A DNA stretch of 21,266 bases from positions 1 through 21,266 of the forward strand of contig JABMDE010000029.1 in the NCBI GenBank assembly GCA_015904055.1, in the 5' to 3' direction. The position numbers were made by a program, and so were the translations under genes. The notes below the pieces were generated by a model that saw nothing but the letters and a program-made list of their open reading frames with translations, made no database searches and was not told the DNA's origin. Numbering within the stretch: position 1 is the stretch's first letter; each line of letters starts with the position of its first letter. The stretch comes from Nitrospira sp. GTDB lineage: Bacteria > Nitrospirota > Nitrospiria > Nitrospirales > Nitrospiraceae. Positions 1 to 19,199 of this stretch are shown in pieces.

Positions 1-31
1 TCATCATGCCTTTGCACTTCGGACATTCCAT
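1..31 (-). CDS. Zinc-ribbon small protein, first ~10 codons only (cut by window edge)
   Basis: Reading leftwards from the start codon at 31-29 gives MECPKCKGMM, identical to the start of the complete 57-residue zinc-ribbon protein at 12668-12841. A good ribosome-binding site (GGAGG) sits just upstream on the minus strand in both copies. The rest of the gene lies beyond position 1, so whether this copy is intact is unknown. Function: see the complete copy. Confidence 0.7.
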   Translation of the reverse strand, partial: MECPKCKGMM

Positions 32-125
32 CACTTCCTCCCAGGTGGCTAGGTGTACAGCTGGTGACGTACATAGCAAGAGATGCACCAATTTGTCGCG
101 TTACGATATTTCAATGGGTTACGTT

Positions 126-205
126 CTACGTAGTTCACACAATGGCAAAAATGGCATGACCAGCTAGTACAAAAACGTCCTGGTGTCATTTTTTGTGCGT
201 CAAAG
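126..205 (+). promoter_or_regulatory. Conserved non-coding leader upstream of radC, copy A
   Basis: Bases 126-170 are identical to 12936-12980, and 171-205 match 12981-13016 apart from two substitutions and one indel. The flanking radC reading frames differ at roughly 8% of bases. The block holds an 8-bp palindrome CTACGTAG and a duplicated ATGGCA, and runs up to the radC start codon. I found no convincing -35/-10 pair and no Shine-Dalgarno directly before radC, so the role (promoter, operator or leader) is inferred only from conservation. Confidence 0.4.
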
Positions 206-931
206 ATGGCTACAATGACAGGCAAGAAGCTGGCAAAGGGAATTACACAGTGGCCTGAAACTGAACGTCCGCGTGAGCGGCTGATGGCGAAGGGCCCCGA
301 TGCGCTGTCGGATGCGCAGCTGCTCGCCATTCTCCTCAGAACCGGTCGCCGTGATTCGTCCGCTGTACAAGTCGCAATCGAACTGCTTGGCCGAGTCGGA
401 GGTATCGGTGGGTTGGCCATGTGCGGGATTGAAGAGCTCTGTGCAATTCAGGGTATCGGACCTGCCAAGGCAGCCCAGCTAAAAGCCGCAGTAGAATTAG
501 GACGCCGAGCACTGGCCGCCCCGCTCTCGACCGGCACACGCATCTCCTCAAGCGCCGATCTCTTCAAGCATTTTCACCCTATCCTGCGTGATCGCAAGCA
601 GGAGCTCTTCAAGGTTGTGCTGCTGGACGCTAAGAATACTGTCGTCAAGGAAGCCACCGTGTCGGAAGGGACATTGACACTCAGCCTCGTGCACCCTCGA
701 GAAGTGTTCGCCTCTGCGGTTCGTGAGTCTGCCGCTGCCGTGATCTTTTTGCATAACCATCCCAGCGGCGATCCGACTCCAAGCCTGGAAGATCGACACC
801 TGACAGATCGTTTGGCGGAGGCCGGCCGATTACTGGGCATTCCCGTGCTGGATCACGTGATCATTGGCGACGGCCGGTATGTAAGTTTTGCTGATCAGGG
901 CTGGATCAAAGGACAACACAGCAGCGATTAA
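206..931 (+). CDS. radC: RadC family JAB/MPN-domain protein, copy A
   Basis: 241 residues, a normal RadC length. The N-terminus has the family signature WPETERPRERL (16-26) and ALSDAQLLAILLRTG (33-47). A helix-hairpin-helix-like stretch follows at about 60-100 (IQGIGPAKAAQLKAAVELG). The C-terminal JAB domain has the full JAMM metal motif: His183, His185, Ser193 and Asp196 in HNHPSGDPTPSLED. RadC was once assigned to DNA repair, but its biochemical role is unsettled. The ATG at 206 has no clear ribosome-binding site; the in-frame ATG at 215 is an alternative. An EF-G-like gene follows after 54 bp on the same strand, suggesting co-transcription. The protein is about 95% identical to the copy at 13017-13742 (13 differences I counted), with all motifs retained, so both look functional. 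Confidence 0.95.
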   Translation: MATMTGKKLAKGITQWPETERPRERLMAKGPDALSDAQLLAILLRTGRRDSSAVQVAIELLGRVGGIGGLAMCGIEELCAIQGIGPAKAAQLKAAVELGRRALAAPLSTGTRISSSADLFKHFHPILRDRKQELFKVVLLDAKNTVVKEATVSEGTLTLSLVHPREVFASAVRESAAAVIFLHNHPSGDPTPSLEDRHLTDRLAEAGRLLGIPVLDHVIIGDGRYVSFADQGWIKGQHSSD

Positions 932-985
932 GATCGGGAGGGAGAGATGCTCTAAACCGTGCTCAATCGATGAGGAGGGCAGACC

Positions 986-3089
986 ATGGACAATATCCGT
1001 GTGGGGCCCATCAGAAATGTCGCGATTGTGTCCAATGTTCGGCGCAGGCAAGACATCCCTCAGCGAGGCGATTCTCTTCGCCAGCGGAGCCGTTCCCGTC
1101 CTCGGCTCCATCGCACAGGGCACGACCGTATCAGATTTTGAACCGGAAGAACTGCACCATCGCAGTTCCGTCAGTACCAGCGTGCTTCAGTTTTCTTGGA
1201 ATCAGACCACCATCTCGCTGCTTGATCCTCCCGGTGCACTCAGTCTGCTCGGGGAACCACTTTCCGCATTGCGGGCCGTCGATGCCGCATTGATCGTTCT
1301 CGACGGACAGGCCGGTGTCCGAACTGAGTTGTCGCGTCTGTGGGTGCGCATCGAAGAACTTGGTCTGCCCTGCCTGTTCTTCGTCAACGGATTGGATCGG
1401 GACGGTGCGTCGATCGACCATGCGCTGGAAACCTGCCGGACACAACTTAACTGTATTCCCATTCCCATGGTTGTCCCGGTCGGCCTCGGCCCTCAGCTGG
1501 AGGGCGTGATCGACATCCTCCAGGAGCGGTTCATCGGGTCCGGACCAGCTACTGCCAAGGTACAAATATTACCGGTGCCAGCTCATTTTGAATCTGCTGC
1601 GAAGGAAGGCCGTAGCAGGCTGATGGAGGCCGTAGCAGAGACCGAGGATGCCCTGCTGAATGCCTATGTTGCCCAGGGAGATCTGAATCGTGACATGCTT
1701 TTCTCCGGACTTCGTTCCGGCATCCTGCGAAGGCAGGTGTTTCCACTGTACGCTGGCTCCGCAGTGCGCAACCTAGGGGTATGGTCGCTGATAAATGCAC
1801 TGACGGATTTGTTGCCATCACCAAGTGAACGCTGCGCCGTGCATCCTTCACTGGGGGTACAGCCAAGTACAGACTTGTCATGCGAACGGAAGGGGAGTGC
1901 GCAGGAGCCATTCTCGTCATTGGTATTCAAAACACTGATCGATCCGTTCGTAGGGCGATTGTCGTATTGCCGTATTCTCTCAGGAACCGTCCATGCTGAT
2001 TCTCTCGTGTGGAACGCGTCGAAACAGGTGCGTGAGAAGCTGGGACATTTCTATACGCTTTTCGGGAAACGGCACACCGCGGTTGCGTCGGCATCGGCAG
2101 GAGAAATCGTGGCCATCGGAAAGTTGCATGACACATACACCGGTGACACGCTGTGCGATGAGAAGAATCAGATTTGCTATCCGGCGATCGGACTGCCTCG
2201 GCCGGTCCTGTCATTCGCGATTGAGGCTATGTCAAAGGCGGAGATTGAGAAAGTGAGTCTCGGCCTGCATAAGCTGATTGAGGAAGATCCGACGCTGGCA
2301 TTTTCTCGCAACGCGGAGACCAAAGAGATGGTGCTCAGCAGTCTTGGCCAACTCCATATTGACCTGGCGGTCGAGAAGCTCCACCGGAAATTTGGGGCCG
2401 GCGTCACCCTGCATATGCCGAAGATCCCTTATCATGAAACCGTACACGCAACTGCGCAGGCGCAGGGCAAATATAAGAAACAGACGGGCGGCCACGGACA
2501 ATATGGGGACTGCTGGCTGGAAGTCGCGCCCTTGCCGCGTGGCGGCGGATTTATCTTCGAACATCGTGTCGTCGGCGGGGCGATTCCACGAAACTTCATT
2601 CCTGCGGTGGAAAAAGGAGTGAGTGAGGCGATGCATGAGGGTGTGTTGGGTGGATTTCCTGTCGTCGACGTCCGGGTCGCTGTGTACGACGGTTCTTACC
2701 ATGTAGTCGATTCGTCAGAAATGTCATTTAAAATTGCAGGGTCGATGGCTTTCAAGAAAGCGATGGAAACCGCGCAGCCGGTGTTGTTAGAACCGATGAT
2801 GACGGTTGAGATTGAAGCACCGACGGACGCCGTCGGTGCGGTGATGGGCGACCTGAATGCGCGCAGAGGTCGTATCCTTTCAGTCAACGCGAACGATCAT
2901 GCCGAGCAGATTGTTGCGCTTGTGCCGCTTGCTGAATTGCTGAAGTATGCACCAGCGCTGAATGGCATGACAGGCGGGCGGGGGAGTTATGTGATGGAGT
3001 TTGCCCGCTACGAGGAAGTGCCGCGCGAGCTGGCAGGCAAAATTGTCGAGCAACACAAGATGGAGCGGCAGGCCGTGGGGGCGCATTGA
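986..3089 (+). pseudogene. EF-G-like translational GTPase, copy A, frameshifted in the P-loop region
   Basis: The expected start ATG at 986 has a strong ribosome-binding site (GAGGAGGG) and encodes MDNIRVGPIRNVAIVSNV. An extra base at about 1036-1040 (AATGTTCGGC here, AACGTCGGT in copy C) then changes frame immediately before GAGKTS. From there the frame is open to the stop at 3087 and encodes domains that align with copy C throughout: G domain, domain II, and domains III-V with GGHGQYGD, YHVVDSSEMSF and GDLNARRGRI. A body-frame ATG at 1017 or 1035 could give a shorter protein lacking the first beta strand, but neither has a clear ribosome-binding site. I call it a recently broken gene; a sequencing error or programmed shift is possible. 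It lies downstream of radC and convergent with the protease gene. Confidence 0.8.
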
Positions 3090-3129
3090 TGGGCGTGATC
3101 GCTCGCCGTGTGTGAAGGAGAGTTTGTCC

Positions 3130-3159
3130 TTCGACCCCTCGGCCTCGCTCGGGGTCGAA
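3130..3159. repeat. Perfect 9-bp inverted repeat in the fusA/degP convergent gap, copy A
   Basis: TTCGACCCC at 3130-3138 pairs perfectly with GGGGTCGAA at 3151-3159 across a 12-nt loop. It lies between the converging stop codons of the EF-G-like gene and the protease gene. There is no T-tract, so it is not a textbook intrinsic terminator, although it could stop or stabilise transcripts from either side. The corresponding gap in repeat B lacks this palindrome and has a different one, so it looks like a small inserted REP-like element. Confidence 0.6.
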
Positions 3160-3187
3160 CCTGTGTCACGAGATACGCTGGACGCAA

Positions 3188-4600
3188 TCACTCGGCGGAT
3201 TTGAGCACAATATAGAAAGCCCGATTCTCGCGCAGTATTCGGAGCAAGATCGTGTCTCCTCGCCGGAGCCGCGAGATCGCCGAGTGAAACTCCGTGGCCG
3301 AAGTCACTTCTGCGCGATTCACTTCTTTGATCAGGTCGCCTTCTCGGAGGCCTTCGGTGTGGGCCAGGCTGCCGGTTTCAACCTTTGTGATGAGCGCACC
3401 TTTCGACTCGCGCAGATTGAATGTGTCGGCCAATCCTGGGGTGAGATCTTGTGTGTCGAGGCCGAGCTTCAGGTCTGCCTTGGTTTGCGGAATGGCTGCG
3501 GTCATTACGGCATCGCGCCGCTCGATTAATGGGACATTCAGGATGAGGCGATTGCGATCGCGAATGACTTCAATATGCGCTGTGGTGCCAGGAGTGAGTG
3601 CACCGATCAGCCGTGACAACTTATTTGGTGAATCAACGGGACTCCCGTTAATGTTCACGATAATATCACCCGGCTTCATGCCTGCCGATGCAGCTGGGTC
3701 TTTTTCAAAGACCTCATTGACGAGGACCCCTTCGCTTTCGGTTACGCCGAATTTTTTGGCCAATTCGGGTGTCATCGGTTGAATGCCAACACCAAGCCAT
3801 CCCCGCACCACTTTGCCCTTTGCCAGGAGTTGCTCGATGACCTGCTTGGCCATGTTTGACGGAATGGCGAAGCCGATGCCTTGGGCAAAATTGATGATGG
3901 CTGTATTGATGCCGATCACTTCGCCGTAGAGATTGAACAGTGGCCCGCCGGAATTGCCAGGATTGATCGACGCATCGGTCTGAATGAAATTTTCGTACCG
4001 TGATAGGTTCATATTTTCCCGCCCGATGCCGCTGACGACTCCGAGCGTGACCGTGCGATCGAGTCCAAAGGGATTCCCCACTGCAAGGACCCATTGCCCG
4101 ACTTTCACGGAAGTGGAATCGCCGAAACGAGCGTTGGGGAGTGGCCGGCTTGCCGTTACTTTGAGAAGGGCCAGGTCAGTATCCGGATCTTTCCCGACCA
4201 CGCTCGCTATTAGTTTGGTCTTATCGGAAAACCGGACTTCGATCTCGGTTGCATCGCCGATCACGTGGTTATTTGTGATGATGTACCCGTCGCTGTCGAT
4301 AATCAGGCCAGAGCCTGACCCTGAGGCATTCGGAGCGCGGTCCTCAAACCCTTCACGAGACCGGCCGGTACTCGGAAGAGGAAACAGATTTACAACGGAT
4401 GGCTTAGCCTGTTCAGCCAAGTTCGTAATCACGGCCTGAATTTCTTCAAGAAGACGAATGCCGGGCCGTTCGGTGCGGACGGCGTCTGCATTTGGTTCTG
4501 CCAGTACAAGCTCTGGATATACCAGTGCAGGAAACAGCAGGAGAATGGGCAGGACTACGTGCTGCCACAGATTATAATGAGCAGAGCGTCTCGTGAACAT
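3188..4600 (-). CDS. degP: HtrA/Do-family periplasmic serine protease, copy A
   Basis: 470 residues. An N-terminal signal sequence (hydrophobic about 14-33, likely cleavage after Ala34) exports it to the periplasm. The trypsin-like domain has the full triad: His112 (TNNHVIGD), Asp142 (DPDTDLALLKV) and Ser217 (INPGNSGGPL). Two PDZ domains follow, at about 265-358 (GWLGVGIQ, DPAASAGMKPGDII) and 377-465 (TEGLREGDLIKEVNR). This is the DegP/DegQ/MucD architecture for degrading or refolding misfolded envelope proteins; which subtype cannot be decided from sequence alone, so the symbol is a family label. The ATG at 4600 matches the conserved start of the second copy; no strong ribosome-binding site is visible. 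It lies 46 bp downstream of the RCK_C gene on the same strand, probably in one operon. Confidence 0.93.
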   Translation of the reverse strand: MFTRRSAHYNLWQHVVLPILLLFPALVYPELVLAEPNADAVRTERPGIRLLEEIQAVITNLAEQAKPSVVNLFPLPSTGRSREGFEDRAPNASGSGSGLIIDSDGYIITNNHVIGDATEIEVRFSDKTKLIASVVGKDPDTDLALLKVTASRPLPNARFGDSTSVKVGQWVLAVGNPFGLDRTVTLGVVSGIGRENMNLSRYENFIQTDASINPGNSGGPLFNLYGEVIGINTAIINFAQGIGFAIPSNMAKQVIEQLLAKGKVVRGWLGVGIQPMTPELAKKFGVTESEGVLVNEVFEKDPAASAGMKPGDIIVNINGSPVDSPNKLSRLIGALTPGTTAHIEVIRDRNRLILNVPLIERRDAVMTAAIPQTKADLKLGLDTQDLTPGLADTFNLRESKGALITKVETGSLAHTEGLREGDLIKEVNRAEVTSATEFHSAISRLRRGDTILLRILRENRAFYIVLKSAE

Positions 4601-4646
4601 GAGAACGTACCGTATTGTTGTGAATGCTCGTCACTGTGCCCTCAGT

Positions 4647-5285
4647 CTAGGCGGATTTAGTTGTTGCAGCATTGAGTGTGCGCTGGCTGGTAAACCATGT
4701 CACCAGTCGATCTAACTCGGATTCTATTCCAATTAAGACGACGATATCGTCGCTCCGGAAGATCAGCCCCTCAGACGGAGCAAGTAAGAATGGTCCGCGT
4801 AAGACGGATACAATATGGATCGAGGACGATCGAGGCATGGCACTGATGGTTTGGCCGACGGCAGCGGCATGTCTGGTAATCGTCAGTCGCTCAATCTTGG
4901 CAGACCGAACCGCTAAGTCCTGTTGAAGCTTAAGGGAATCCTCGTGGATCGCTTCAAGTTTGAGTTCGCGGATTTGTCCATCGATCCGCGTCAAGGACCG
5001 CTTCAGTTCCTGCACACGGGCCGCCGCGTGCGACACGGTCGTGTCCATTGTAGAGTCATGCTGGTTCTGGTTTGAGAATGGGCGGCCGGTGTGATCGACA
5101 ACCTGTCGGCCGACCTCGGCGGTGACCTCATCGATCCGTTGAAGTACTCCTGACGCGTGCCAGTGAAGGCGAATAATCTGTGTCTTGCGATTCACGCGTT
5201 CAGAAATCGAGAGGACGATTTCATACAGCGCGCTGCCGGTGATCGACAGTTCCTTGTGAAGGCGTCCGAAGAATTCGAGGCTCAT
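4647..5285 (-). CDS. RCK_C (TrkA-C) domain protein with central coiled coil, copy A
   Basis: 212 residues with no signal peptide or membrane segment, so probably cytoplasmic. Residues 1-60 are helical and amphipathic. Residues 66-79 form a polar linker (HTGRPFSNQNQHD). About 85-135 is a charged coiled coil (VQELKRSL, IRELKLEAIHED). Residues 138-198 resemble the TrkA-C/RCK_C fold: a beta-rich stretch with VLRGPFLLAPSEG, then the DDIVVLIGIESELDRL turn-strand-helix. RCK_C domains usually bind small ligands, for example cyclic di-AMP in potassium transport regulators. Here the NAD-binding RCK_N domain and a transporter are absent, so the ligand and partner are unknown. It is the first gene of the RCK_C-protease operon. 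About 89% identical to the 17410-18048 copy, with differences clustered in the linker. Confidence 0.75.
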   Translation of the reverse strand: MSLEFFGRLHKELSITGSALYEIVLSISERVNRKTQIIRLHWHASGVLQRIDEVTAEVGRQVVDHTGRPFSNQNQHDSTMDTTVSHAAARVQELKRSLTRIDGQIRELKLEAIHEDSLKLQQDLAVRSAKIERLTITRHAAAVGQTISAMPRSSSIHIVSVLRGPFLLAPSEGLIFRSDDIVVLIGIESELDRLVTWFTSQRTLNAATTKSA

Positions 5286-5353
5286 GGTCTGATAAGATTG
5301 ATTATGTCAACTTGTGGATTTGTCACACCTTCATGCTGACGGCGTCCACTCCA

Positions 5354-5379
5354 CTGGTATTCGGTACGTACAATACCAG
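5354..5379. promoter_or_regulatory. 8-bp inverted repeat, possible operator upstream of the RCK_C gene, copy A
   Basis: CTGGTATT (5354-5361) and AATACCAG (5372-5379) are perfect inverted arms separated by 10 bp. The site is about 70 bp upstream of the RCK_C start. In repeat B the same position keeps only a partial version (TCGTATT...CATACCAG). A transcription-factor site is possible but not shown. The surrounding 5286-5433 spacer has a TATAAC/GTTATA element near 5400 conserved in both repeats, but no matching -35 box. Confidence 0.3.
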
Positions 5380-5425
5380 ATAACTGTTTCGACTTCATTG
5401 TATAACTGACTCGTTTCCATATGCG

Positions 5426-5440
5426 CAAAGAAGTTGATCG
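5426..5440. other. Recombination seam between repeat A and the truncated EF-G-like copy
   Basis: CAAAGAAGTT at 5426-5435 is the last stretch shared with repeat B (18189-18198). From 5434 the sequence (TTGATCGTTCTC) instead matches the interior of the EF-G-like gene at 1290 onward. Only the two bases TT are common to both parents. This is the signature of illegitimate end-joining, as expected for the novel junction of a tandem duplication. Confidence 0.85.
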
Positions 5441-7233
5441 TTCTCGACGGACAGGCCGGTGTCCGGACCGAGTTGTCGCGTCTGTGGGTGCGCATCGAAG
5501 AACTTGGTCTGCCCTGCCTGTTCTTCGTCAACGGATTGGATCGAGTCGGTGCGTCGATCGACCATGCGCTGGAAATTTGCCGGATACAACTTAATTGTAT
5601 TCCCATTCCCATGGTTGTCCCGGTCGGCCTCGGCCCTCAGATGGAGGGCGTGATCGATATCCTCCAAGAGCAGTTCATACGGTCCGGACCAGCTGCTGCC
5701 AAGGTAGAAATATTACCGGTGCCAGCTCATTTTGAATCTGCTGCGAAGGAAGGCCGTACCAGGCTGATGGAGGCCGTAGCAGAGACCGAGGATGCCCTGC
5801 TTGATGCCTATGTTGCCCAGGGAGGTCTGAATCATGACATGCTTTTCTCCGGACTTCGTTCCGGCATCCTGCGAAGGCAGGTGGTTCCGCTGTACGCGGG
5901 CTCCGCAGTGCGCAACCTAGGAGTATGGTCGCTGCTGAATGCACTGACTGCCTTGCTACCATCACCAAGTGAACGCTGCGCTGCTCATCCTTCACAGGGC
6001 CTACATCCTAGTACGGACTTGTCATGCGAACGGAAGGGGAGTGCGCAGGAGCCATTCTCGTCGTTCGTATTCAAAACACTGATCGATCCGTTCGTAGGGC
6101 GATTGTCGTATTGCCGTATTCTCTCAGGAGCCGTCCATGCTGATTCTCTTGTGTGGAACGCGTCGAAACAGGTGCGTGAGAAGCTGGGACATTTCTATAC
6201 GCTCTTCGGGAAACGGCACACCGCAGTTGAGTCGGCAGCGGCAGGAGAAATCGTGGCCATCGGAAAGTTGCATGACACATACACGGGTGACACGCTGTGT
6301 GATGAACAGGCTCAGATTTGCTATCCGGCGATCGGACTGCCTCGGCCGGTCCTGTCCTTCGCGATTGAGGCCACGTCAAAGGTGGAGATTGAGAAAGTGA
6401 GTCTCGGCCTGCATAAGCTGATTGAGGAAGATCCGACGCTGGCATTTTCTCGCAACGCAGAGACCAAAGAGATGGTGCTCAGCAGTCTTGGTCAACTCCA
6501 TATTGATCTGGCGGTAGAGAAGCTCCACCGGAAATTCGGGGCCGACGTCACGCTGCATATGCCGAAGATTCCTTATCATGAAACCGTACATGCGACAGCG
6601 CGCGCGCAGGGCAAATACAAGAAACAGACGGGCGGCCACGGGCAATATGGGGACTGCTGGCTGGAAATCGCGCCCTTGTCGCGTGGCGGCGGATTCATCT
6701 TTGAACATCGCGTCGTCGGTGGAGCGATTCCCAGAAACTTCATTCCTGCGGTGGAAAAAGGAGTGAGTGAGGCGATGCATGAGGGTGTGTTGGGCGGATT
6801 TCCCGTCGTCGACGTCCGGGTCGCTGTGTACGACGGGTCTTACCATGTGGTGGATTCGTCAGAAATGTCATTTAAAGTTGCAGGGTCGATGGCTTTCAAA
6901 AAAGCGATGGAAACAGCGCAGCCGGTGTTGTTAGAACCGATGATGACGGTTGAGATTGAAGCTCCGACGGACACGGTTGGAGCCGTGATGGGCGACCTGA
7001 ATGCGCGCAGAGGTCGTATCCTTTCAGTCAACGCGAACGATCATGCCGAGCAGATTGTTGCGCTTGTGCCGCTTGCCGAATTGCTGAAGTATGCGCCAGC
7101 GCTGAATGGCATGACAGGCGGGCGGGGGAGTTATGTGATGGAGTTTGCCCGTTACGAGGAAGTGCCGCGCGAGCTGGCAGTCAAGATTGTCGAGCAGCAC
7201 AAGACAGAGCGGCAGGCCGTGGGGGCGCATTGA
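5434..7233 (+). pseudogene. EF-G-like translational GTPase, copy B, 5'-truncated
   Basis: The open frame begins exactly at the seam and corresponds to residues 102-700 of copy C. It lacks the P-loop (G1), switch I (G2) and DPPG (G3), but keeps NGLDR (G4), the GSA (G5) region and all of domains II-V without a stop. The only possible start is TTG at 5434, with no usable ribosome-binding site; ATG at 5421 is out of frame. I regard it as a fragment, although 599 uninterrupted codons suggest recent truncation or occasional repair by conversion with its paralogues. It is nearer to copy A in its 5' half but shares tracts with copy C further on. purD follows almost immediately. Confidence 0.82.
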
Positions 7234-7253
7234 GGGGCGCGATCACTCGGCGG

Positions 7254-8522
7254 GTGAAAATTCTTGTCGTCGGTGGTGGTGGACGCGAGCACACGATTGT
7301 GTGGAAGCTTGCGCAGAGCCCACGGAAACCAGTCATATTCTGTGCACCGGGTAATGCCGGTATCGAATCGCTAGCCGCCTGTGTGCCGATCAAGGCCGAC
7401 GATATTGCCGCGCTGAAAGATTTCGTCATCAGAGAGCAGATCGACTTCACGGTTGTTGGACCGGAAGCGCCGCTGGCACTGGGAATTGCCGATGAATTCC
7501 GCCGCGCCAAACTGAAGATTTTCGGTCCTACCAAGAATGCCGCGCGGCTGGAAGCCAGCAAGATCTTTTCAAAAGATGTGATGGCACAAGCCAAGATTCC
7601 AACTGCGCGGGCCAAAAGTTTTGACAAGGCAACCGAGGCGCTTGACTATCTTGAGCACCATGAACTGCCTGTGGTGATCAAGGCGGACGGTCTGGCCCAA
7701 GGGAAGGGCGTGATCATCGCCACGACACGGGAACAAGCGCGCGAGGCGATCGGCGACTCCATGGAAAAAGGCATCTTTGGTCAGGCAGGCAAGCAGGTAT
7801 TGATCGAACAATTCCTCAACGGCGAAGAACTCACGATCATGGCATTCACCGACGGCCAGACCGTCGTACCGATGTTGCCGGCGCAAGATCACAAGCGGGT
7901 AGGGGATGGTGATACCGGACTGAATACCGGCGGCATGGGTGCCTACTGTCCGGCGCCGTTGGGCACCCCGGCTCTCTGTGAGCACGTCGCCCGTACGGTG
8001 TTACAGCCGATCGTGGAGACGATGTCGCGACTGGGATCGCCCTTTCAGGGTGTCCTCTACGCCGGCCTCATGGTCGTCAATGGTATGCCCTATGTGTTGG
8101 AGTTTAATGCGCGGATGGGCGATCCTGAGACGCAGGTGGTGCTCCCGTTGCTCAAGACCGATTTGCTCGACGTCATTGAGGCGGTCATCGAGCATCGACT
8201 CGATCAACTCAGAGTCGAATGGCATCATGACACGGCGGTCTGCGTTGTGATGACGTCAGGCGGATATCCTGGTCAATATCAGAACGGATTTCCTTTGCAT
8301 GGTTTGCAGGGCGCGGCTGCTGCACGGGCCCTTGTCTTTCATGCTGGAACCGCCAGGAAGAATGATGCTGTTGTGACAGCCGGTGGACGTGTCTTGGGCA
8401 TTACCGGACAGGGAGCCACGTTGAAAGACGCGCAAGCGGAAGCCTATAGGGCCGTATCCGCCATTTCATTCGAAGGGTGTCATTATCGAAAGGATATTGC
8501 CCATCGCGCGGTGACTTCTTAG
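7254..8522 (+). CDS. purD: Phosphoribosylamine-glycine ligase (GAR synthetase)
   Basis: 422 residues from the GTG at 7254, which gives the canonical family start MKILVVGGGGREHT. A TTG at 7230 overlapping the preceding stop would add eight unrelated residues, so I reject it. PurD joins glycine to 5-phosphoribosylamine using ATP, the second step of de novo purine synthesis, in the cytoplasm. Visible motifs include the N-terminal VVGGGGREH loop, VVGPEAPL (68-75), the ATP-grasp KADGLAQGKG (143-152), QDHKRVGDGDTGLNTGGMGAY region (211-231) and metal-binding EFNARMGDPETQ (283-294). Length is typical. It starts 20 bp after the truncated EF-G-like copy, and a tsaC-family gene follows 30 bp later. Confidence 0.96.
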   Translation: MKILVVGGGGREHTIVWKLAQSPRKPVIFCAPGNAGIESLAACVPIKADDIAALKDFVIREQIDFTVVGPEAPLALGIADEFRRAKLKIFGPTKNAARLEASKIFSKDVMAQAKIPTARAKSFDKATEALDYLEHHELPVVIKADGLAQGKGVIIATTREQAREAIGDSMEKGIFGQAGKQVLIEQFLNGEELTIMAFTDGQTVVPMLPAQDHKRVGDGDTGLNTGGMGAYCPAPLGTPALCEHVARTVLQPIVETMSRLGSPFQGVLYAGLMVVNGMPYVLEFNARMGDPETQVVLPLLKTDLLDVIEAVIEHRLDQLRVEWHHDTAVCVVMTSGGYPGQYQNGFPLHGLQGAAAARALVFHAGTARKNDAVVTAGGRVLGITGQGATLKDAQAEAYRAVSAISFEGCHYRKDIAHRAVTS

Positions 8523-8552
8523 TCTGCGATTTACGGGTTGGTTTCCGTACGG

Positions 8553-9197: not shown

Positions 9198-9265
9198 GGA
9201 CCGTTCAAATATCGCTGCAGTTCTTAGATTTGTGTGTCTGGTGATTCCATAGAAGGAGGGCGGAG

Positions 9266-9667: not shown

Positions 9668-9677
9668 CAGAAAGCGG

Positions 9678-10052
9678 TCAGGTCGAACTTGACGATGTTC
9701 CCGATGAGGAGGTACTGCCGGATGAGGTGCTACCGGTTGTCGTGGGAGTGGCGGCAGGGGTAGCTGCCGAAGAAGTTGTCGTGGCAGGCGCCGGGGAGGC
9801 CGGCGTCGCCTTCTCAGGAGTCGTTGCCGGTTCTTTCTTCGTGCCGGACGTCGAGTCGGATGGTGGTTTCATCTTGTCGGAATAATCCGTAACATACCAT
9901 CCGCTTCCTTTGAACATGATTGCAGGCGCAGAAATAATCCGGCTGACCGACTTTCCACATTTGGAGCAGGCGGCGACGGGGTCGTCTTTCATGCTCTGTT
10001 TCAATTCAAACCGGAACGAGCAGTCCTGGCAGAGATATTCGTAGATCGGCAC
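9678..10052 (-). CDS. FmdB-family zinc-ribbon putative regulator with Ser/Thr/Pro/Ala tail
   Basis: 124 residues. Residues 1-60 are the FmdB/CxxC zinc-ribbon domain: MPIYEYLCQDC, FELKQS, and CSKCG, with Cys8, Cys11, Cys29 and Cys32 as metal ligands, followed by the family motif FKGSGWYVTDY (47-57). Residues about 64-124 are low complexity, nearly all Ser, Thr, Pro, Ala and Gly. The biochemical role of the family is poorly defined. The start at 10052 has a good ribosome-binding site (GAAGGAGG). It is probably the last gene of the rsmD-coaD-aminotransferase operon, 71 bp after the aminotransferase stop; that gap holds a 5-bp GC hairpin (10090-10104) without a T-tract. Confidence 0.85.
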   Translation of the reverse strand: MPIYEYLCQDCSFRFELKQSMKDDPVAACSKCGKSVSRIISAPAIMFKGSGWYVTDYSDKMKPPSDSTSGTKKEPATTPEKATPASPAPATTTSSAATPAATPTTTGSTSSGSTSSSGTSSSST

Positions 10053-10123
10053 CGAGCCTCCTTCTGTATGTGTCGCAGGTCAACTCTATGGGGCAAATCG
10101 CCCCTCGTCAACAGGATTATCGC

Positions 10124-11320: not shown

Positions 11321-11805
11321 GATTTGAGACTCCGAATTCGTTCGTGGAGCCGACGAGCCACTTCGGGATGAAGAAATTCAGCCAAGCTGCCGCCATGGTG
11401 CGCCACATCTTTGATGATCGTAGAAGACAAGTATGAATATTCCTCGCTCGGCATCAGGAAGACGGTTTCCACATTCCTGGCCAATTTGCGGTTGATGAGA
11501 GCCATTTGGAATTCATGTTCAAAGTCCGAGATGGCGCGCAGTCCACGGATAATAGCATGTGCGTTGGCGCGCTCGACATAGTCGACTAAGAGTCCGTCGA
11601 ACGTCATCACTTCCACTTGATCGACCCCTTTCATAACCAGCGTAACCATATCAAGTCGTTCGGCAAGATTGAAGAGTGGATGTTTAGCTGGATTGGGCGC
11701 GACCGCAACGATGACTTTATCAAAAACACGTAAGCTTCGCGTAATAATATCGGTATGGCCGTGGGTAACAGGATCAAATGTGCCGGGGTAGACACCGATC
11801 TTCAT
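11317..11805 (-). CDS. coaD: Pantetheine-phosphate adenylyltransferase (PPAT)
   Basis: 162 residues. It catalyses ATP + 4'-phosphopantetheine to dephospho-CoA + PPi, the penultimate step of CoA synthesis, in the cytoplasm. The nucleotidyltransferase signature is YPGTFDPVTHGH (6-17, HxGH His15 and His17). Other family features are NPAKHPLF (38-45), IIRGLRAISDFEHEFQMA (85-102) and YLSSTIIKDVA (125-135, the ISSTxxK/R equivalent). Length is standard. Both ends overlap neighbours by four bases (ATGA with rsmD upstream and the aminotransferase downstream), so the three genes form a tightly coupled operon. Confidence 0.96.
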   Translation of the reverse strand: MKIGVYPGTFDPVTHGHTDIITRSLRVFDKVIVAVAPNPAKHPLFNLAERLDMVTLVMKGVDQVEVMTFDGLLVDYVERANAHAIIRGLRAISDFEHEFQMALINRKLARNVETVFLMPSEEYSYLSSTIIKDVAHHGGSLAEFLHPEVARRLHERIRSLKS

Positions 11806-12371
11806 CGTAAGACCGTGCCTGAAGAGGAATATAAAGAGAGGGCCGTGTCGCCATAGCGATACCGGCGCACATAGGCGGCGGAGCCCAGAGAAAGAGGAAG
11901 AGTCGTTTTCTCTGCATGCTCAACGATGAGCCAGGAGTCGGGGGTCAGGAGGCGTTCGGTGACAGTCTGAGTCAACAATGATTCCAGATCGTGTGCGAGA
12001 GCGTAGGGGGGATCGGCAAATACGATATCGTAAGGGCCTTCCCACTGTTCCGGTCGGTTGAGAAATTGTTTGACGGTATGTGCGTACACAGTGATGTGAT
12101 GGGCTATCCCGCAGTCCAGCATATTCTGACGTAAGAGTTTCAGTGCTTCAATATCTGATTCAACACAGGTCACATGCATGGCGCCTCGGCTTATGGCTTC
12201 GATCCCGATCGCTCCGGTTCCTGCATAGAGATCTAGTACTCGGCCAGAGGGAAGGCGATTGCCAAGAATCGAGAACAATGCCTCCCGGACTCGGTCGGAG
12301 GTCGGCCGTAAGCGCGATCCTTGGGGGCCACGAAGACGACGGCCTCGATGGATTCCTGCAATGACGCGCAT
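11802..12371 (-). CDS. rsmD: 16S rRNA (guanine966-N2)-methyltransferase
   Basis: 189 residues, a normal RsmD length. It methylates G966 of 16S rRNA using S-adenosylmethionine. The N-terminus MRVIAGIHRGRRLRGP and LRPTSDRVREALFSIL (21-36) are family signatures. The SAM site is VLDLYAGTGAIGIEAISRG (45-63), and the catalytic motif IV is DPPY (120-123). It is the first gene of the minus-strand operon, and the rsmD-coaD pairing is common in bacteria. A plausible sigma70 promoter lies 34-63 bp upstream; no clear ribosome-binding site precedes the ATG. Confidence 0.95.
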   Translation of the reverse strand: MRVIAGIHRGRRLRGPQGSRLRPTSDRVREALFSILGNRLPSGRVLDLYAGTGAIGIEAISRGAMHVTCVESDIEALKLLRQNMLDCGIAHHITVYAHTVKQFLNRPEQWEGPYDIVFADPPYALAHDLESLLTQTVTERLLTPDSWLIVEHAEKTTLPLSLGSAAYVRRYRYGDTALSLYSSSGTVLR

Positions 12372-12404
12372 AGCAAATGACTACAGGTTCGCCCAGCCCG
12401 GGAG

Positions 12405-12434
12405 ACTCTAACATAGCGTTTTTGAAGGGGTCAA
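12405..12434 (-). promoter_or_regulatory. Predicted sigma70 promoter of the rsmD-coaD-aminotransferase operon
   Basis: On the minus strand, TTGACC (12434-12429, 5/6 match) is followed after 18 bp by TAGAGT (12410-12405, 4/6 match). Transcription would start near 12398 and leave a leader of about 27 nt before the rsmD ATG. Position and spacing are sensible, but the -10 is imperfect. Confidence 0.45.
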
Positions 12435-12467
12435 GAACGGTCGTGTGGATGAGTTTTATCCAGACGA

Positions 12468-12482
12468 CAACGTGAAACGTTG
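12468..12482. repeat. Short perfect hairpin between divergent promoters
   Basis: CAACGT-GAA-ACGTTG is a 6-bp perfect inverted repeat with a 3-nt loop, located in the 106 bp between the minus-strand rsmD promoter and the plus-strand promoter at 12541. An operator reading to either side is possible; no regulator can be named. Nothing else recognisable was seen in 12435-12540. Confidence 0.35.
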
Positions 12483-12540
12483 CGGGATTTATACAGCGGA
12501 ATGCGGATTGAAGGCTGTGCTGGGTACGCGCGACATCATT

Positions 12541-12569
12541 TTGACGGTCGAATAGAGGGAGACTATAAT
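12541..12569 (+). promoter_or_regulatory. Near-consensus sigma70 promoter without an obvious adjacent gene
   Basis: TTGACG (12541-12546, 5/6) and TATAAT (12564-12569, 6/6) are separated by exactly 17 bp. This is the best promoter match I found by eye in the window. Transcription should start near 12576 on the plus strand. The first good gene downstream in that direction is radC at 13017, about 440 bp away, and the zinc-ribbon gene in between is on the opposite strand. Confidence 0.65.
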
Positions 12570-12575
12570 ACAGGG

Positions 12576-12710
12576 TGAATGAGAAACCGGTCCGGTCCTA
12601 TCCCGATCCGTCTAACCGTCACTCAGCAAGCCGTCGTGCGGATCGGGGTCGATAGAGGCCTATTAAATTATCGGGTCGTGACGGGCTGCGCGTCGCGTGC
12701 TGCAAGGCTT
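12576..12710 (+). ncRNA. Candidate structured transcript (leader or small RNA) from the promoter at 12541
   Basis: The predicted transcript begins with a strong stem: 12600-12610 pairs with 12639-12649, including nine perfect pairs CCCGATCCG/CGGATCGGG plus one G-U and one A-T, around a 28-nt loop. A weaker GC-rich hairpin near 12690-12702 precedes a five-T run at about 12711-12715, a poor terminator candidate. It could be a small RNA, the long leader of radC, or an antisense RNA against the zinc-ribbon gene. The 3' end is a guess. A 65-codon frame (12579-12776) here resembles no family I know. Confidence 0.3.
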
Positions 12711-12841
12711 TTTCGTCGATTATTGGAGATCGTGCGATCAATGATCGCGCCGCAGTTGATGCATTTCCATGCGTAGAAAATAAGAAAGAAATCGGAGAAT
12801 CGCTCCAACATCATCATGCCTTTGCACTTCGGACATTCCAT
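12668..12841 (-). CDS. Small zinc-ribbon protein (57 aa), complete copy
   Basis: The likely start is the ATG at 12841, preceded on its strand by GGGAGGAAG, rather than a longer frame beginning at 12901. The 57-residue product is MECPKCKGMMM..., with Cys3/Cys6 (CPKC) and Cys27/Cys30 (CINC) spaced as a compact zinc ribbon, then a basic tail (NNRRKSLAARD). The hydrophobic stretch FSDFFLIFYAW (15-25) lies between the two cysteine pairs. Similar ribbon mini-proteins occur widely with no assigned function; a nucleic-acid or protein-binding role is only inferred. It is divergent from radC, separated by a 175-bp conserved spacer, and its 3' half would be covered by antisense transcription from the 12541 promoter. 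Confidence 0.7.
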   Translation of the reverse strand: MECPKCKGMMMLERFSDFFLIFYAWKCINCGAIIDRTISNNRRKSLAARDAQPVTTR

Positions 12842-12935
12842 CACTTCCTCCCAGGTGGCTAGGTTTACAGCTGCTGACGTACTAAGCAAGAGATGCACCA
12901 ATTTGTTACATCACGATATTTCAATGAGTTATGGT

Positions 12936-13016
12936 CTACGTAGTTCACACAATGGCAAAAATGGCATGACCAGCTAGTACGAAAACGTCCGGGGTGTCAT
13001 TTTTTGTGCGTCAAAG
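12936..13016 (+). promoter_or_regulatory. Conserved non-coding leader upstream of radC, copy B
   Basis: Counterpart of 126-205, with the first 45 bases identical. It contains CTACGTAG, the doubled ATGGCA and a six-T run shortly before the radC ATG. It also lies in the divergent spacer that must carry the zinc-ribbon promoter, so either gene could be the reason for conservation. Confidence 0.4.
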
Positions 13017-13742
13017 ATGGCTGCGATGACAGGTAAGAGGCTGGCAAAGGGAATTACGCAGTGGCCTGAAACTGAACGTCCGCGTGAGCGGCTGATGGCG
13101 AAGGGCCCCGACGCTCTATCAGATGCGCAACTGCTCGCCATTCTTCTCAGAACCGGTCGTCGGGACTCTTCCGCTGTACAAGTTGCAATCGAATTGCTTG
13201 GCCGAGTCGGAAGTATCGGTGGGTTGGCTATGTGCGGGATTGACGAACTCTGTGCGATTCCTGGGATAGGACCTGCAAAAGCTGCTCAGCTAAAAGCCGC
13301 AGTAGAATTAGGGCGCCGATCGCTGGCTGCCCCGCTTTCGACCGGTACGCGCATCTCCTCAAGCGCTGATCTCTTCAAGCATTTCCACCCGATCCTGCGC
13401 GATCGTAAGCAGGAACTCTTCAAGGTTGTGCTGTTGGACGCCAAGAACACCGTGATCAAAGAATCTACTGTGTCGGAAGGAACGTTGACTCTCAGTCTCG
13501 TGCATCCGCGAGAAGTGTTCGCCGCTGCGGTTCGTGAGTCTGCCGCTGCCGTAATCTTTTTGCATAACCATCCCAGTGGCGATCCGACTCCAAGCTTGGA
13601 GGATCGCCATCTGACAGACCGTTTGGCGGAGGCTGGCCGATTACTGGGCATTCCTGTGCTGGATCATGTGATTCTTGGCGACGGCCGGTATGTGAGTTTT
13701 GCTGATCAGGGCTGGATCAAAGGACAACCCAGTAGGGAGTAA
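13017..13742 (+). CDS. radC: RadC family JAB/MPN-domain protein, copy B
   Basis: 241 residues, co-linear with the copy at 206-931. The JAMM metal ligands (His183, His185, Ser193, Asp196), the WPETERPRERL signature and the helix-hairpin-helix-like region are all present. Substitutions against copy A are conservative (for example Lys8Arg, Gly66Ser, Glu76Asp, Gln81Pro, Val149Ile) and most base changes are silent, which suggests both genes have been under purifying selection. The intact EF-G-like gene starts 55 bp downstream with its own strong ribosome-binding site. The plus-strand promoter at 12541 could feed this operon through a ~440-nt leader, or a promoter may lie in the conserved spacer just upstream. 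Confidence 0.95.
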   Translation: MAAMTGKRLAKGITQWPETERPRERLMAKGPDALSDAQLLAILLRTGRRDSSAVQVAIELLGRVGSIGGLAMCGIDELCAIPGIGPAKAAQLKAAVELGRRSLAAPLSTGTRISSSADLFKHFHPILRDRKQELFKVVLLDAKNTVIKESTVSEGTLTLSLVHPREVFAAAVRESAAAVIFLHNHPSGDPTPSLEDRHLTDRLAEAGRLLGIPVLDHVILGDGRYVSFADQGWIKGQPSRE

Positions 13743-13797
13743 GACAGGGAGGGGAGACATGCTCTAAACCGTGCGCAATCGATGAGGAGGGCAGACC

Positions 13798-15900
13798 ATG
13801 GATAATATCCGTATGGAGTCCATGAGGAATGTCGCGATTGTGTCCAACGTCGGTGCAGGCAAGACATCTCTCAGCGAGGCGATTCTCTTCGCCAGCGGAG
13901 CCATTCCCATTCTCGGTTCCATCACACAGGGCACAACCGTATCGGACTTTGAACCGGAAGAACTGCACCACCGCAGTTCCGTCAGTACCAGCGTACTTCA
14001 GTTTTCTTGGAATCAGACCGCTATCTCGCTGCTTGATCCTCCCGGTGCACTCAGCCTACTCGGTGAACCACTCTCCGCATTGCGGGCCGTCGATGCCGTA
14101 TTGATTGTGCTCGACGGGCAGGCCGGTGTTCGCACTGAGTTGTCGCGTCTGTGGGGGCGCATCGGAGAACTTGGTCTACCCTGTCTGTTTTTTGTGAACG
14201 GATTGGATCGAGACGGTGCGTCGATCCAACATGCGCTGGAGATGTGCCGCACACAACTTGACTGTATTCCTATTCCCATGGTTCTACCGGTCGGCCTCGG
14301 TCCTCAGACGGAGGGAGTGATTGACCTCTTCCAAGAGCAGTTCATACGGTCCGGGCCGTCGACTCCCAGGGTAGAGACCTTGCCGATACCTGTTCATCTG
14401 GAATCTGCTGCAAAGGAGGGACATGTCAGGCTTATGGAAGCCGTAGCGGAAACCGAGGATGCCCTGCTGGACGCCTATGTCGCCCAGGGAGCTCTGGATC
14501 ATGACGCGCTGTTCTCAGGCCTTCGCTCTGGTATCCTGCGAAGACAGGTGTTTCCACTGTACGCCGGTTCCGCAGTGCGCAATCTAGGGATATGGCCGCT
14601 GATACATGCAATGGCAGCCTTGTTGCCATCACCAGGCGAACGCTGTGCCGCGCATCCTGTGCAGGGCGTCCAGCTGGATACAGGACGGCCATGCGAACGG
14701 AAGGGGAGTGTGCAGGAACCATTCTCCGCGTTTGTATTCAAGACACTGATCGACCCGTTCGTCGGACGACTGTCGTATTGTCGTCTGCTCTCAGGAACCG
14801 TCCAGGCGGATTCTCTCGTGTGGAACGCGTCGAAACAGGTGCGTGAGAAGCTGGGTCATTTCTATACACTCTTCGGCAAACGGCATACTCCTGTTGCGTC
14901 AGCATTGGCTGGAGATATCGTGGCCATCGGAAAATTACATGACACACACACCGGTGACACGTTGTGTGACGAAAAGAATCAGATTTGCTATCCGGCGATT
15001 GGACTGCCTCGACCCGTTCTGTCATTCGCGATTGAGGCCAAGTCGAAGGCGGAGATCGAGAAAGTCAGTCTCGGCCTGCATAAGCTGATTGAGGAAGATC
15101 CGACGCTGGAGTTTTCTCGCAACTCGGAGACCAAAGAGATGGTACTCGGCAGTCTTGGTCAACTCCATATTGATCTGGCTTTGGAAAAGCTCCATCGGAA
15201 ATTTGGGGCTGACGTCACGTTGCATACGCCGAAGATTCCCTATCATGAAACCGTGCACATGACAGCGCGCGCGCAGGGTAAATACAAGAAACAGACGGGC
15301 GGCCACGGACAATATGGGGACTGCTGGTTGGAGGTCGCGCCGTTGCCGCGTGGCGGTGGATTCATCTTCGAACATCGCGTCGTCGGAGGAGCGATTCCCA
15401 GACAGTTCATTCCTGCGGTGGAAAAAGGAGTGAGCGAGGCGATGCATGAGGGTGTGTTGAGCGGATTTCCCGTCGTCGATGTCCGAGTCGCTGTGTACGA
15501 TGGCTCGTATCATGTGGTGGATTCGTCAGACATGTCATTTAAAATTGCAGGGTCAATGGCCTTCAAGAAAGCGATGGAAATGGCGCAGCCGGTGTTGCTG
15601 GAACCGATGATGACGGTTGAGATTGAAGCTCCGACGGACACGGTTGGAGCCGTGATGGGCGATCTGAATGCGCGCAGAGGTCGGATCCTCTCAGTCAATG
15701 CGAGTGATCATGCCGAGCAGATTGTTGCACTTGTGCCGCTTGCTGAATTGCTGAAGTATGCGCTGGCGCTGAATGGCATGACAGGCGGGCGGGGGAGCTA
15801 TGCGATGGAGTTTTCCCGTTATGAGGAAGTGCCGCGCGAGCTGTCAATCAAGATTGCCGACCAGCACAAGACGGAACGGCAGGCCGTGGGAGCGCATTGA
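13798..15900 (+). CDS. Non-canonical EF-G-like translational GTPase, copy C (intact)
   Basis: 700 residues in the EF-G domain order, from ATG 13798 behind GAGGAGGG. The G domain is unusual. G1 is SNVGAGKTS (16-24), with Ser at the first P-loop position. The switch I RGIT-like motif is replaced by RSSVSTS. G3 is DPPGA (80-84), where canonical EF-G has DTPGH with its catalytic His. G4 is NGLD (134-137) instead of NKxD. Domains IV-V are close to canonical EF-G: GGHGQYGDCW, VVGGAIPRQFIPAVEKG, YHVVDSSDMSFKIAG, GDLNARRGRI and GMTGGRGSYAMEF. It should still bind the ribosome A site, but GTP hydrolysis may be slow or differently triggered. It is unlikely to be the housekeeping EF-G, since no rpsL-rpsG-tuf context is present. 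radC lies upstream; the protease gene converges. Confidence 0.9.
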   Translation: MDNIRMESMRNVAIVSNVGAGKTSLSEAILFASGAIPILGSITQGTTVSDFEPEELHHRSSVSTSVLQFSWNQTAISLLDPPGALSLLGEPLSALRAVDAVLIVLDGQAGVRTELSRLWGRIGELGLPCLFFVNGLDRDGASIQHALEMCRTQLDCIPIPMVLPVGLGPQTEGVIDLFQEQFIRSGPSTPRVETLPIPVHLESAAKEGHVRLMEAVAETEDALLDAYVAQGALDHDALFSGLRSGILRRQVFPLYAGSAVRNLGIWPLIHAMAALLPSPGERCAAHPVQGVQLDTGRPCERKGSVQEPFSAFVFKTLIDPFVGRLSYCRLLSGTVQADSLVWNASKQVREKLGHFYTLFGKRHTPVASALAGDIVAIGKLHDTHTGDTLCDEKNQICYPAIGLPRPVLSFAIEAKSKAEIEKVSLGLHKLIEEDPTLEFSRNSETKEMVLGSLGQLHIDLALEKLHRKFGADVTLHTPKIPYHETVHMTARAQGKYKKQTGGHGQYGDCWLEVAPLPRGGGFIFEHRVVGGAIPRQFIPAVEKGVSEAMHEGVLSGFPVVDVRVAVYDGSYHVVDSSDMSFKIAGSMAFKKAMEMAQPVLLEPMMTVEIEAPTDTVGAVMGDLNARRGRILSVNASDHAEQIVALVPLAELLKYALALNGMTGGRGSYAMEFSRYEEVPRELSIKIADQHKTERQAVGAH

Positions 15901-15924
15901 GGGACATGATCGCTCGCCGTCCTG

Positions 15925-15956
15925 CGCGTCACGCTTCACGAGATAGGTGTGACGCG
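15925..15956. repeat. 8-bp inverted repeat in the fusA/degP convergent gap, copy B
   Basis: CGCGTCAC (15925-15932) and GTGACGCG (15949-15956) pair across a 16-nt loop, ending just before the protease stop codon. Like the unrelated palindrome in the same gap of copy A, it lacks a T-tract but is placed where a bidirectional terminator would be useful. Confidence 0.5.
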
Positions 15957-15957
15957 A

Positions 15958-17364
15958 TCACTCGGCGGATTTGAGTACCACATAGAAGGCCCGATTCTCG
16001 CGCAGTACGCGAAGCAGGATGGTATCTCCTCGACGGAGCCGCGAGATCGCTGAGTGAAACTCCAGGGCTGAGGCCACTTCTGCGCGATTCACCTCCTTGA
16101 TGAGATCGCCTTCCCGGAGGCCTTCGGCATGTGCCAGACTGCTGGCTTCAACTTTTGTGATGAGCGCGCCTTTCGACTCGCGCAAATTGAATGTATCTGC
16201 CAATCCCGGAGTCAAGTCCCGCACATCAATACCAAGCCTCACGTCCATCTTGGTTTGTGGAAGCACGGTGGTAATCACCGCATCACGCCGCTCGGTCAAT
16301 GGAATATTCAGAGTGAGGCGATTATGGTCGCGAATGACTTCAATATGCGCAGTTGTGCCGGGAGTGAGCGCGCCGATCAGCCGTGACAACCTATTCGGCG
16401 AATCGACGGGACTTCCGTCAATGGTCACGATGATATCACCCGGTTGAATGCCTGCCGATGCGGCCGGGTCTTTTTCAAAGACCTCATTGACGAGAACCCC
16501 TTCGTTTTCGGTCATGCCAAATTTCTTGGCCAATTCAGGCGTCATGGGTTGAATGCCGACACCGAGCCATCCCCGCATCACTTTGCCCTTTGCCAGGAGT
16601 TGCTCGATAACCTGCTTGGCCATATTTGAGGGAATGGCGAAGCCGATGCCTTGGGCAAAATTGATGATGGCCGTATTAATCCCGATCACTTCGCCGTGGA
16701 GATTGAACAGCGGTCCGCCGGAATTGCCGGGATTAATTGACGCATCGGTCTGAATAAAGTTTTCGTATCGTGATAGGTTCATGTTTTCCCGTCCGATGCC
16801 GCTGACGACTCCGAGCGTGACCGTGCGGTCGAGCCCAAAGGGATTCCCCACTGCAAGGACCCATTGCCCTACTTTCACAGAAGTCGAGTCGCCGAAATGA
16901 GCAGCAGGGAGCGGCTGGTTTGTCGTCACTTTGAGAAGAGCCAGATCGGTATCCGGATCTTTGCCGACCACGGTCGCCACCAATTTAGTCTTATCGGAAA
17001 ACCGGACTTCGATCTCGTTTGCATCGCCAATGACGTGATTGTTCGTGATGATGTATCCGTTGCTGTCGATAATCAGGCCAGAGCCTGATCCTGAGGCATT
17101 CGGCGTGCGTTCTCCAGATCCTTCACGAGACCGGCCGGTATTTGGAAGAGGAAACAGATTCACAACGGATGGCTTGGCCTGTTCAGCCAGGTCGGTAATC
17201 ACAGACTGAATTTCTTCAAGAAGACGAATGCCTGGTGGCTCTGCGCGGACGGCAGCTGTCTTCGAATCTGCTCGAACAAGCTCTGGATATACCAGTGCGG
17301 GAAGCAGCAGGAGAAGGAGCAGGACTACCTGCCGATTATTATGAGCAACGTGTCTCGTGAACAT
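15958..17364 (-). CDS. degP: HtrA/Do-family periplasmic serine protease, copy B
   Basis: 468 residues from the ATG at 17364, the position equivalent to the start of copy A; an upstream in-frame ATG at 17385 would add seven residues (MNIWFFL) and is less likely. The signal peptide contains a long leucine run (about 14-21). The triad is intact at His110, Asp140 and Ser215 (PGNSGGPL), followed by two PDZ domains. Most differences from the other copy fall in the signal peptide, the linker after the mature N-terminus and the second PDZ domain, while the protease core is nearly unchanged. The two copies could differ in substrate or regulation. It lies 45 bp downstream of the RCK_C gene in the same orientation. 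Confidence 0.93.
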   Translation of the reverse strand: MFTRHVAHNNRQVVLLLLLLLPALVYPELVRADSKTAAVRAEPPGIRLLEEIQSVITDLAEQAKPSVVNLFPLPNTGRSREGSGERTPNASGSGSGLIIDSNGYIITNNHVIGDANEIEVRFSDKTKLVATVVGKDPDTDLALLKVTTNQPLPAAHFGDSTSVKVGQWVLAVGNPFGLDRTVTLGVVSGIGRENMNLSRYENFIQTDASINPGNSGGPLFNLHGEVIGINTAIINFAQGIGFAIPSNMAKQVIEQLLAKGKVMRGWLGVGIQPMTPELAKKFGMTENEGVLVNEVFEKDPAASAGIQPGDIIVTIDGSPVDSPNRLSRLIGALTPGTTAHIEVIRDHNRLTLNIPLTERRDAVITTVLPQTKMDVRLGIDVRDLTPGLADTFNLRESKGALITKVEASSLAHAEGLREGDLIKEVNRAEVASALEFHSAISRLRRGDTILLRVLRENRAFYVVLKSAE

Positions 17365-17409
17365 GAGGAAGAACCATATGTTCAAGAATGCGCGTCACTG
17401 CGCTTCAGT

Positions 17410-18048
17410 CTACGCGGATTTAGTTGTCGTAGTGTTGAGTGTGCGTTGGCTGGTAAACCATAGTGCCAGCCGATCTAACTCGGATTCTATTCCAATTAAG
17501 ACGACAATATCATCGGTCCGGAAGATCAGTCCCTCGGACGGAGCGAGTAGGAATGGTCCGCGTAAGACGGATGCAATATGGACCGAGGACGATCGAGGCA
17601 TGGCACCGATTGCTTGGCCAACGGCAGCGGCGTGCCTGGTAATTGTGAGTCGCTCAATCTTGGCAGATCGAACCAGCAAGTCTTGCTGCAGCTTAAGAAA
17701 GTCCTCATGGATCGCTTCAAGTTTAAGTTCGCGAATTTGTGCGTCAATTTGTGTTAATGACTGCTTCAGCTCCTGTACCCTGGCCGCCGCGTGTGACACG
17801 GTCGTGTCCATTGCTGAATCATGCTGGTGCGGATGTGAGAGCGGGTGACCGACGTGGTCGACAACCTGTCGGCCAACCTCTGCGGTGAGCTCATCGATTC
17901 GTTGAAGTATTCCCGACGCGTGCCAGTGAAGGCGAATGATCTGCGTTTTGCGATTTACGCGCTCAGAAATCGAGAGGAGGATTTCGTACAGCGCGCTGCC
18001 AGTGATCGACAGTTCCTTATGAAGGCGGCCGAAGAATTCAAGACTCAT
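17410..18048 (-). CDS. RCK_C (TrkA-C) domain protein with central coiled coil, copy B
   Basis: 212 residues, same architecture as the copy at 4647-5285: helical N-terminus, linker, coiled coil (about 85-135) and RCK_C-like domain (about 138-198, VLRGPFLLAPSEG and DDIVVLIGIESELDRL conserved). I count 24 differences (about 89% identity). The linker at 65-77 is enriched in histidine here (HVGHPLSHPHQHD, five His in 13 residues) but not in copy A, hinting at metal contact or simple drift. No RCK_N domain, transporter or transmembrane helix is nearby, so involvement in ion homeostasis is only suggested by the domain. It leads the operon with the protease and is divergent from the ttuA-like gene. 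Confidence 0.75.
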   Translation of the reverse strand: MSLEFFGRLHKELSITGSALYEILLSISERVNRKTQIIRLHWHASGILQRIDELTAEVGRQVVDHVGHPLSHPHQHDSAMDTTVSHAAARVQELKQSLTQIDAQIRELKLEAIHEDFLKLQQDLLVRSAKIERLTITRHAAAVGQAIGAMPRSSSVHIASVLRGPFLLAPSEGLIFRTDDIVVLIGIESELDRLALWFTSQRTLNTTTTKSA

Positions 18049-18089
18049 AGTCCGATAAGATAGATTATGTCAACTTATGGATTTGCCCT

Positions 18090-18105
18090 GCCTTCGTATG
18101 AAGGC
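18090..18105. promoter_or_regulatory. 6-bp hairpin in the RCK_C/ttuA divergent spacer
   Basis: GCCTTC-GTAT-GAAGGC is a perfect short inverted repeat about 42 bp upstream of the RCK_C start. It is not conserved in repeat A. The whole spacer 18049-18236 must hold promoters for both divergent genes; TATAAC at 18163-18168 is a possible -10 for ttuA but no good -35 lies at the right distance. Confidence 0.25.
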
Positions 18106-18236
18106 GTCCACTCCAATCGTATTCACCACGTACCATACCAGATTGCCGTATCGACTTCATCGTATAACTGAGTTGGTTTTCATAAGAGCAAAGAAGTTTG
18201 CATTCATTCCGTGCTGCTCGTAGAATTCACAGCTGT

Positions 18237-19181: not shown

Positions 19182-19199
19182 CACGATACAGGCAAACGG

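Follow-up and report, generated by a model that had tools for sequence, protein, structure and literature searches.

We identify three copies of an EF-G-like gene, fusA, in the 21,266-nucleotide stretch of Nitrospira DNA analyzed here (the window), two of them within long blocks of shared gene order and the third lying between these blocks. The window contains no N and has a G+C content of 54.9%; a scan of it for RNA families, tRNAs, and tandem repeats found none. Its features are the following, with supporting matches in parentheses.

1..5435, block A: zinc-ribbon gene start, radC, fusA, degP, and rck, truncated on the left by the window edge (BLAST to block B and to genome G042)
206..931, + strand, radC copy A, intact, 241 aa (Pfam RadC 4e-44)
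986..3089, + strand, EF-G-like fusA copy A, frame broken in the window (unbroken counterpart P0002, 700 aa)
3188..4600, - strand, degP-like protease copy A, intact, 470 aa (Pfam Trypsin_2, PDZ)
4647..5285, - strand, TrkA_C (RCK_C) protein copy A, rck, intact, 212 aa (Pfam TrkA_C)
5433..5436, seam 1: junction of the region upstream of rck with fusA codon 101, 2 bp (TT) common to both sides
5434..7233, + strand, fusA copy C, truncated at its 5' end, 599 aa, no P-loop (identical to the last 599 aa of P0001)
7234..7258, seam 2: junction of the 20 nt past the fusA stop with the purD start codon
7254..12810, single-copy segment between C and B (Pfam; colinear with G042 at 88.6%)
12811..18198, block B: zinc-ribbon gene start, radC, fusA, degP, and rck, every gene intact (self-BLAST, Pfam)
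13798..15900, + strand, fusA copy B, intact, 700 aa (identical to P0010)
18198..20222, + strand, ttuA-like gene and dnaJ, which form the usual right flank and occur once, after B (Pfam)

Self-BLAST aligns positions 1-3109 with 12811-15920 at 88.3% identity and 3166-5435 with 15936-18198 at 85.5%; these matches and the Pfam families confirm the two blocks of common gene order that a sequence-only reading of the window had proposed. That reading put their divergence at ~10%, whereas we measure about 12-15%. Gene order in A and B is identical and head to tail, the pattern by which tandem duplication in place is recognized, and the repeat spacings of ~12.8 and ~4.1 kb were also recovered by a comparison other than self-BLAST. 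Bases 1-31 are the start of the zinc-ribbon gene in A, and bases 1-54 are identical to 12811-12864. Because the window edge falls inside this gene, A continues left of position 1, in support of the leftward extension suggested earlier. The segment between C and B holds, in order, purD, tsaC, a gene for a 133-aa coiled-coil protein, an fmdB-type zinc ribbon, an aminotransferase, coaD, rsmD, and a zinc ribbon.

A third EF-G-like piece had been described as joined to the right end of A at 5434, and self-BLAST bears this out: 5434-7258 matches 1290-3116 in A at 93.9%, and 5434-7249 matches 14101-15916 in B at 87.3-87.4%. The seam there, reported as visible, is in fact exact, in that A tracks B as far as GCAAAGAAGTT, which in B lies a short way ahead of ttuA, and then continues at fusA codon 101. 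At seam 2, the stop codon of C (7231-7233) lies 20 nt before the purD GTG start at 7254, and similarity between A and C ends within GTGAA, a motif common to the post-fusA sequence in A and to the purD start. No long word is common to both sides of seam 1 or of seam 2. Pfam detects every EF-G domain in A and B, with the frame of A broken in the window by a single additional T within codon 18 (1037-1039; ATG at 986). Copy C lacks the first 100 fusA codons, the P-loop among them, as is also seen in its Pfam matches.

Copy C has no stop over its 599 codons. Seventeen relatives share 306 invariant columns, at which A, B, and C carry 5, 3, and 3 private changes, respectively; the corresponding count for each relative, when it is the one left out, is 2-22, and 2-4 for the close ones. 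Changes assigned to branches stand at 16.5 nonsynonymous to 16.5 synonymous in C and 7.5 to 27.5 in A, with 37 changes unassigned. C is thus relatively richer in amino-acid changes (Fisher p 0.024 on rounded counts), and this difference from A likely reflects some relaxation of constraint in C. Since C has otherwise scarcely decayed, its truncation appears to be recent.

Protein searches returned counterparts of all three copies (P0001 for C, P0002 for A, and P0010 for B), each with a longest contig of 78,859 bp, a common figure from which we infer that they share one contig. P0010 equals B over 700 residues, and A, once its extra base is removed, is identical to P0002 (MBH0182644.1, 700 aa) at each of the 682 residues compared; intact A was found on two contigs. 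P0001 (688 aa) consists of MRKEV, then fusA from codon 18 (84 residues), and then the 599 residues of C. Since the residues MRKEV are encoded in the window just before seam 1, the left side of the seam is identical; fusA is entered at codon 18 in P0001 versus codon 101 in the C of the window. With a longer C, intact A, and B all tied to the 78,859-bp contig, the join is not unique to the window. The C of the window is 254 nt shorter than P0001, and the gap starts at codon 18, the position to which the extra T of A corresponds. Both codon-18 lesions are absent from the three proteins, and no other difference occurs in 1,981 residues (682, 599, and 700). That both lesions fall at one spot of near-identical copies, with no other difference, suggests that they arose during assembly of the window and are not biological. 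Assemblers usually work with word lengths such as 127, of which 254 is exactly twice, and the numbers hint, faintly, at a k-mer origin for the 254-nt difference (2 x 127) and for the 54-base repeat at position 1. The sequence-only reading predicts a second purD-rsmD series left of position 1, and rsmD and tsaC proteins were searched as an indirect sign of one on the 78,859-bp contig. In these searches, no match had a longest contig of 78,859 bp among the best 120 of 247 and the best 120 of 423, respectively; a tsaC protein identical to that of the window (P0241, 203 aa) lies on two contigs, the longest being 71,793 bp among the matches listed.

The closest loci belong to Nitrospira, and the best 80 of 578 confirmed loci were used for comparison. 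The same arrangement had been suggested as worth seeking in relatives: a second fusA match over half its length is present in 0/80 of these loci. Of the same best 80, 57 hold purD, 53 of them with >1.5 kb of upstream sequence; purH lies directly before purD in 52 of the 53 and fusA in none, the lone exception (L048) having no purH match. Each of the three complete-chromosome loci (L007, L068, and L073) has one copy. The nearest genome compared (G042, ~88%) carries purH-purD...rsmD-radC-fusA-degP-rck-ttuA once, on a 576,717-bp contig, with its purH confirmed by Pfam, and block A matches it by BLAST at 88.1% and 83.4%. Among 79 genomes of the genus (76 matched; three candidates per genome scored, table read by eye), none has two full-length copies on one contig, and in two, G037 and G042, a further copy sits on a separate contig. 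In G042, a 4,459-bp contig (L102, G042:C31, identical to L011) carries a second fusA locus 70% like B, while the bin also has an 86% copy; this second fusA contig is perhaps a contaminant of the bin.

Synonymous distances were computed for the three fusA copies over the 599 codons present in all. A-C dS is 0.170, against 0.465 for A-B and 0.417 for B-C, with omega of 0.14-0.17. Across radC, fusA, degP, and rck, dS is 0.46-0.51 for A-B, 0.41-0.60 for A-G042, and 0.39-0.71 for B-G042, with omega of 0.06-0.15 throughout; A, B, and the single-copy sister G042 are about equidistant in the four genes and under similar purifying selection. Sites that group two sequences against one over the whole block number 345 for A with B, 309 for A with G042, and 299 for B with G042 (chi-square p 0.16), and with L001 as outgroup 78, 60, and 74 (p 0.28). 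Neither dS nor these sites place A and B closer to each other than to the sister-species ortholog. A stop flagged in L001 radC is the normal gene end, two codons ahead of the cut used. No conversion tracts were seen between A and B, whose identity profile and exact runs resemble those between species (longest runs 54 for A-B, 77 for A-G042, and 72 for B-G042). Gene conversion was also rejected as the cause of A-C closeness, identity between these two being even along the gene at 90-96%. In the protein tree, A and C group at 100/99 and fall outside a weak (81/81) group of B and seven relatives. Under import, one copy would be expected to nest with another species; no donor was found, and a single clade of A, B, and C is not rejected (p-AU 0.258), so an old split within one genome is compatible with the tree. 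Exact branching aside, the three copies appear, from their sequences, to behave as orthologs from different lineages.

We propose, as a reading with about an even chance of being right, that A, C, and B are separately evolved working versions of one Nitrospira locus, at sister-species distance, that were recently joined head to tail in a cell. DNA of one or two sister lineages would have been added beside the resident locus, as in merodiploids made by transformation, and the junctions may have been made at microhomology of 2 bp at seam 1 and ~5 bp at seam 2. Seam 1 would thereby have placed the region between rck and ttuA ahead of the EF-G remnant C, and seam 2 would have placed C directly before the purD start codon. 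With C in this position, purD and the genes that follow it, deprived of their usual purH neighbor, would be read from upstream of C. A more doubtful extension, which we regard as possible, is that a living Nitrospira keeps sister-species radC, EF-G paralogue, degP, and rck beside its own and that an EF-G remnant captured the purD operon under the rck-ttuA control region. We lean slightly toward joining in a cell on the strength of the absence of N, the lack of long common words at the seams, the recurrence of the left side of seam 1 in P0001, and the position of seam 2 on a start codon. Against it stand the C-branch relaxation, the unrejected clade of A, B, and C, and the tsaC match lying off the 78,859-bp contig among the matches listed.

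The contig may instead be a strain-chimeric assembly that abuts homologous pieces of two or three co-occurring Nitrospira species, an arrangement present in no cell; we consider this a serious possibility, if short of an even one. In mixed-strain assemblies, false duplication sets diverged homologous pieces head to tail. Equal-sized divergence among A, B, and G042, equal, ortholog-like constraint, and the lack of conversion are all expected of such an assembly too, and both window lesions, the extra T in A and the shortening of C, point to assembly trouble at fusA codon 18; the left edge of C also differs between the window and P0001. Comparable mixed structures turned up in a self-repeat scan of the 80 loci, which gave matches in four (L028, L056, L015, and L021). 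L028 carries at 1911-7337 a head-to-tail repeat from the 3' part of purD to the aminotransferase, with copies 82-86% alike and a seam inside two genes. In L056, a second radC piece (12903-13457) follows a cut degP and matches L052 at 94.9%, whereas the first radC matches L054 at 94.8%; judged on sequence, this would be a mixed-species contig or a transfer. Such structures therefore do occur in draft bins, and the window resembles both in its head-to-tail diverged pieces. The seams of L028 and L056 lie inside genes, however, whereas one seam of the window falls on the purD start codon and the left half of the other recurs in P0001; the presence of intact A on two contigs, the absence of N, and the lack of a long word common at either seam likewise speak against misassembly. 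If the window is an assembly product, diverged tandem copies in Nitrospira draft bins, those of L028 and L056 included, need read checks before duplications are dated from them.

The sequence-only reading had instead proposed an old tandem duplication of a unit running from mid-fusA (C) through rck, which on our measure would have been retained at ~12% divergence, and we find this very improbable: the head-to-tail order, the single seam, the run of A into the zinc-ribbon gene, the unrejected clade, and the 345 A-B sites against 309 and 299 agree with it, but a unit that starts in C makes C no younger than the A/B split, which the A-C dS of 0.17, far below A-B and B-C, contradicts. The left end of such a unit also requires an ancestral neighborhood of fusA beside purD, and in the 53 informative loci among the best 80 of 578 that place is taken by purH in 52 and by fusA in none. 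Had C existed since the A/B split, it would be expected to show decay, yet it has scarcely decayed, nor has conversion been seen; rescue by conversion of C from A is ill-matched with the even A-C identity.

Joining of sister-lineage versions in a cell has partial parallels in known systems. Merodiploids arise by natural transformation when part of the chromosome is duplicated in tandem during DNA uptake, and the window resembles them in having two copies of one region side by side, although they span 100-900 kb, form by crossing-over at a repeat, and have nearly identical copies (Johnston et al. 2013, PMC3784515). The copies in the window, unlike these, are 12-15% apart, and its seams have only 2-5 bp of common sequence. 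In homology-facilitated illegitimate recombination, one end of the foreign DNA is anchored through homology, and the opposite end is joined at microhomology. The joining at microhomology is alike in the window, and the homologous side, if any, would lie left of position 1. If the joining did occur in a cell, the window would represent a natural merodiploid, built from the DNA of sister species by an uncultured nitrifier and still showing both microhomology seams, and it would illustrate how diverged repeats can come about that were never identical and hence unstable.

The remaining loci in the self-repeat scan, L021 (6651-9127) and L015 (1-1268), carry further internal repeats of >600 bp at 76-83%. 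The EF-G-like protein encoded at 13798-15900 is a paralogue, and G001 and G002 each have a second full-length EF-G elsewhere, at 37% identity.
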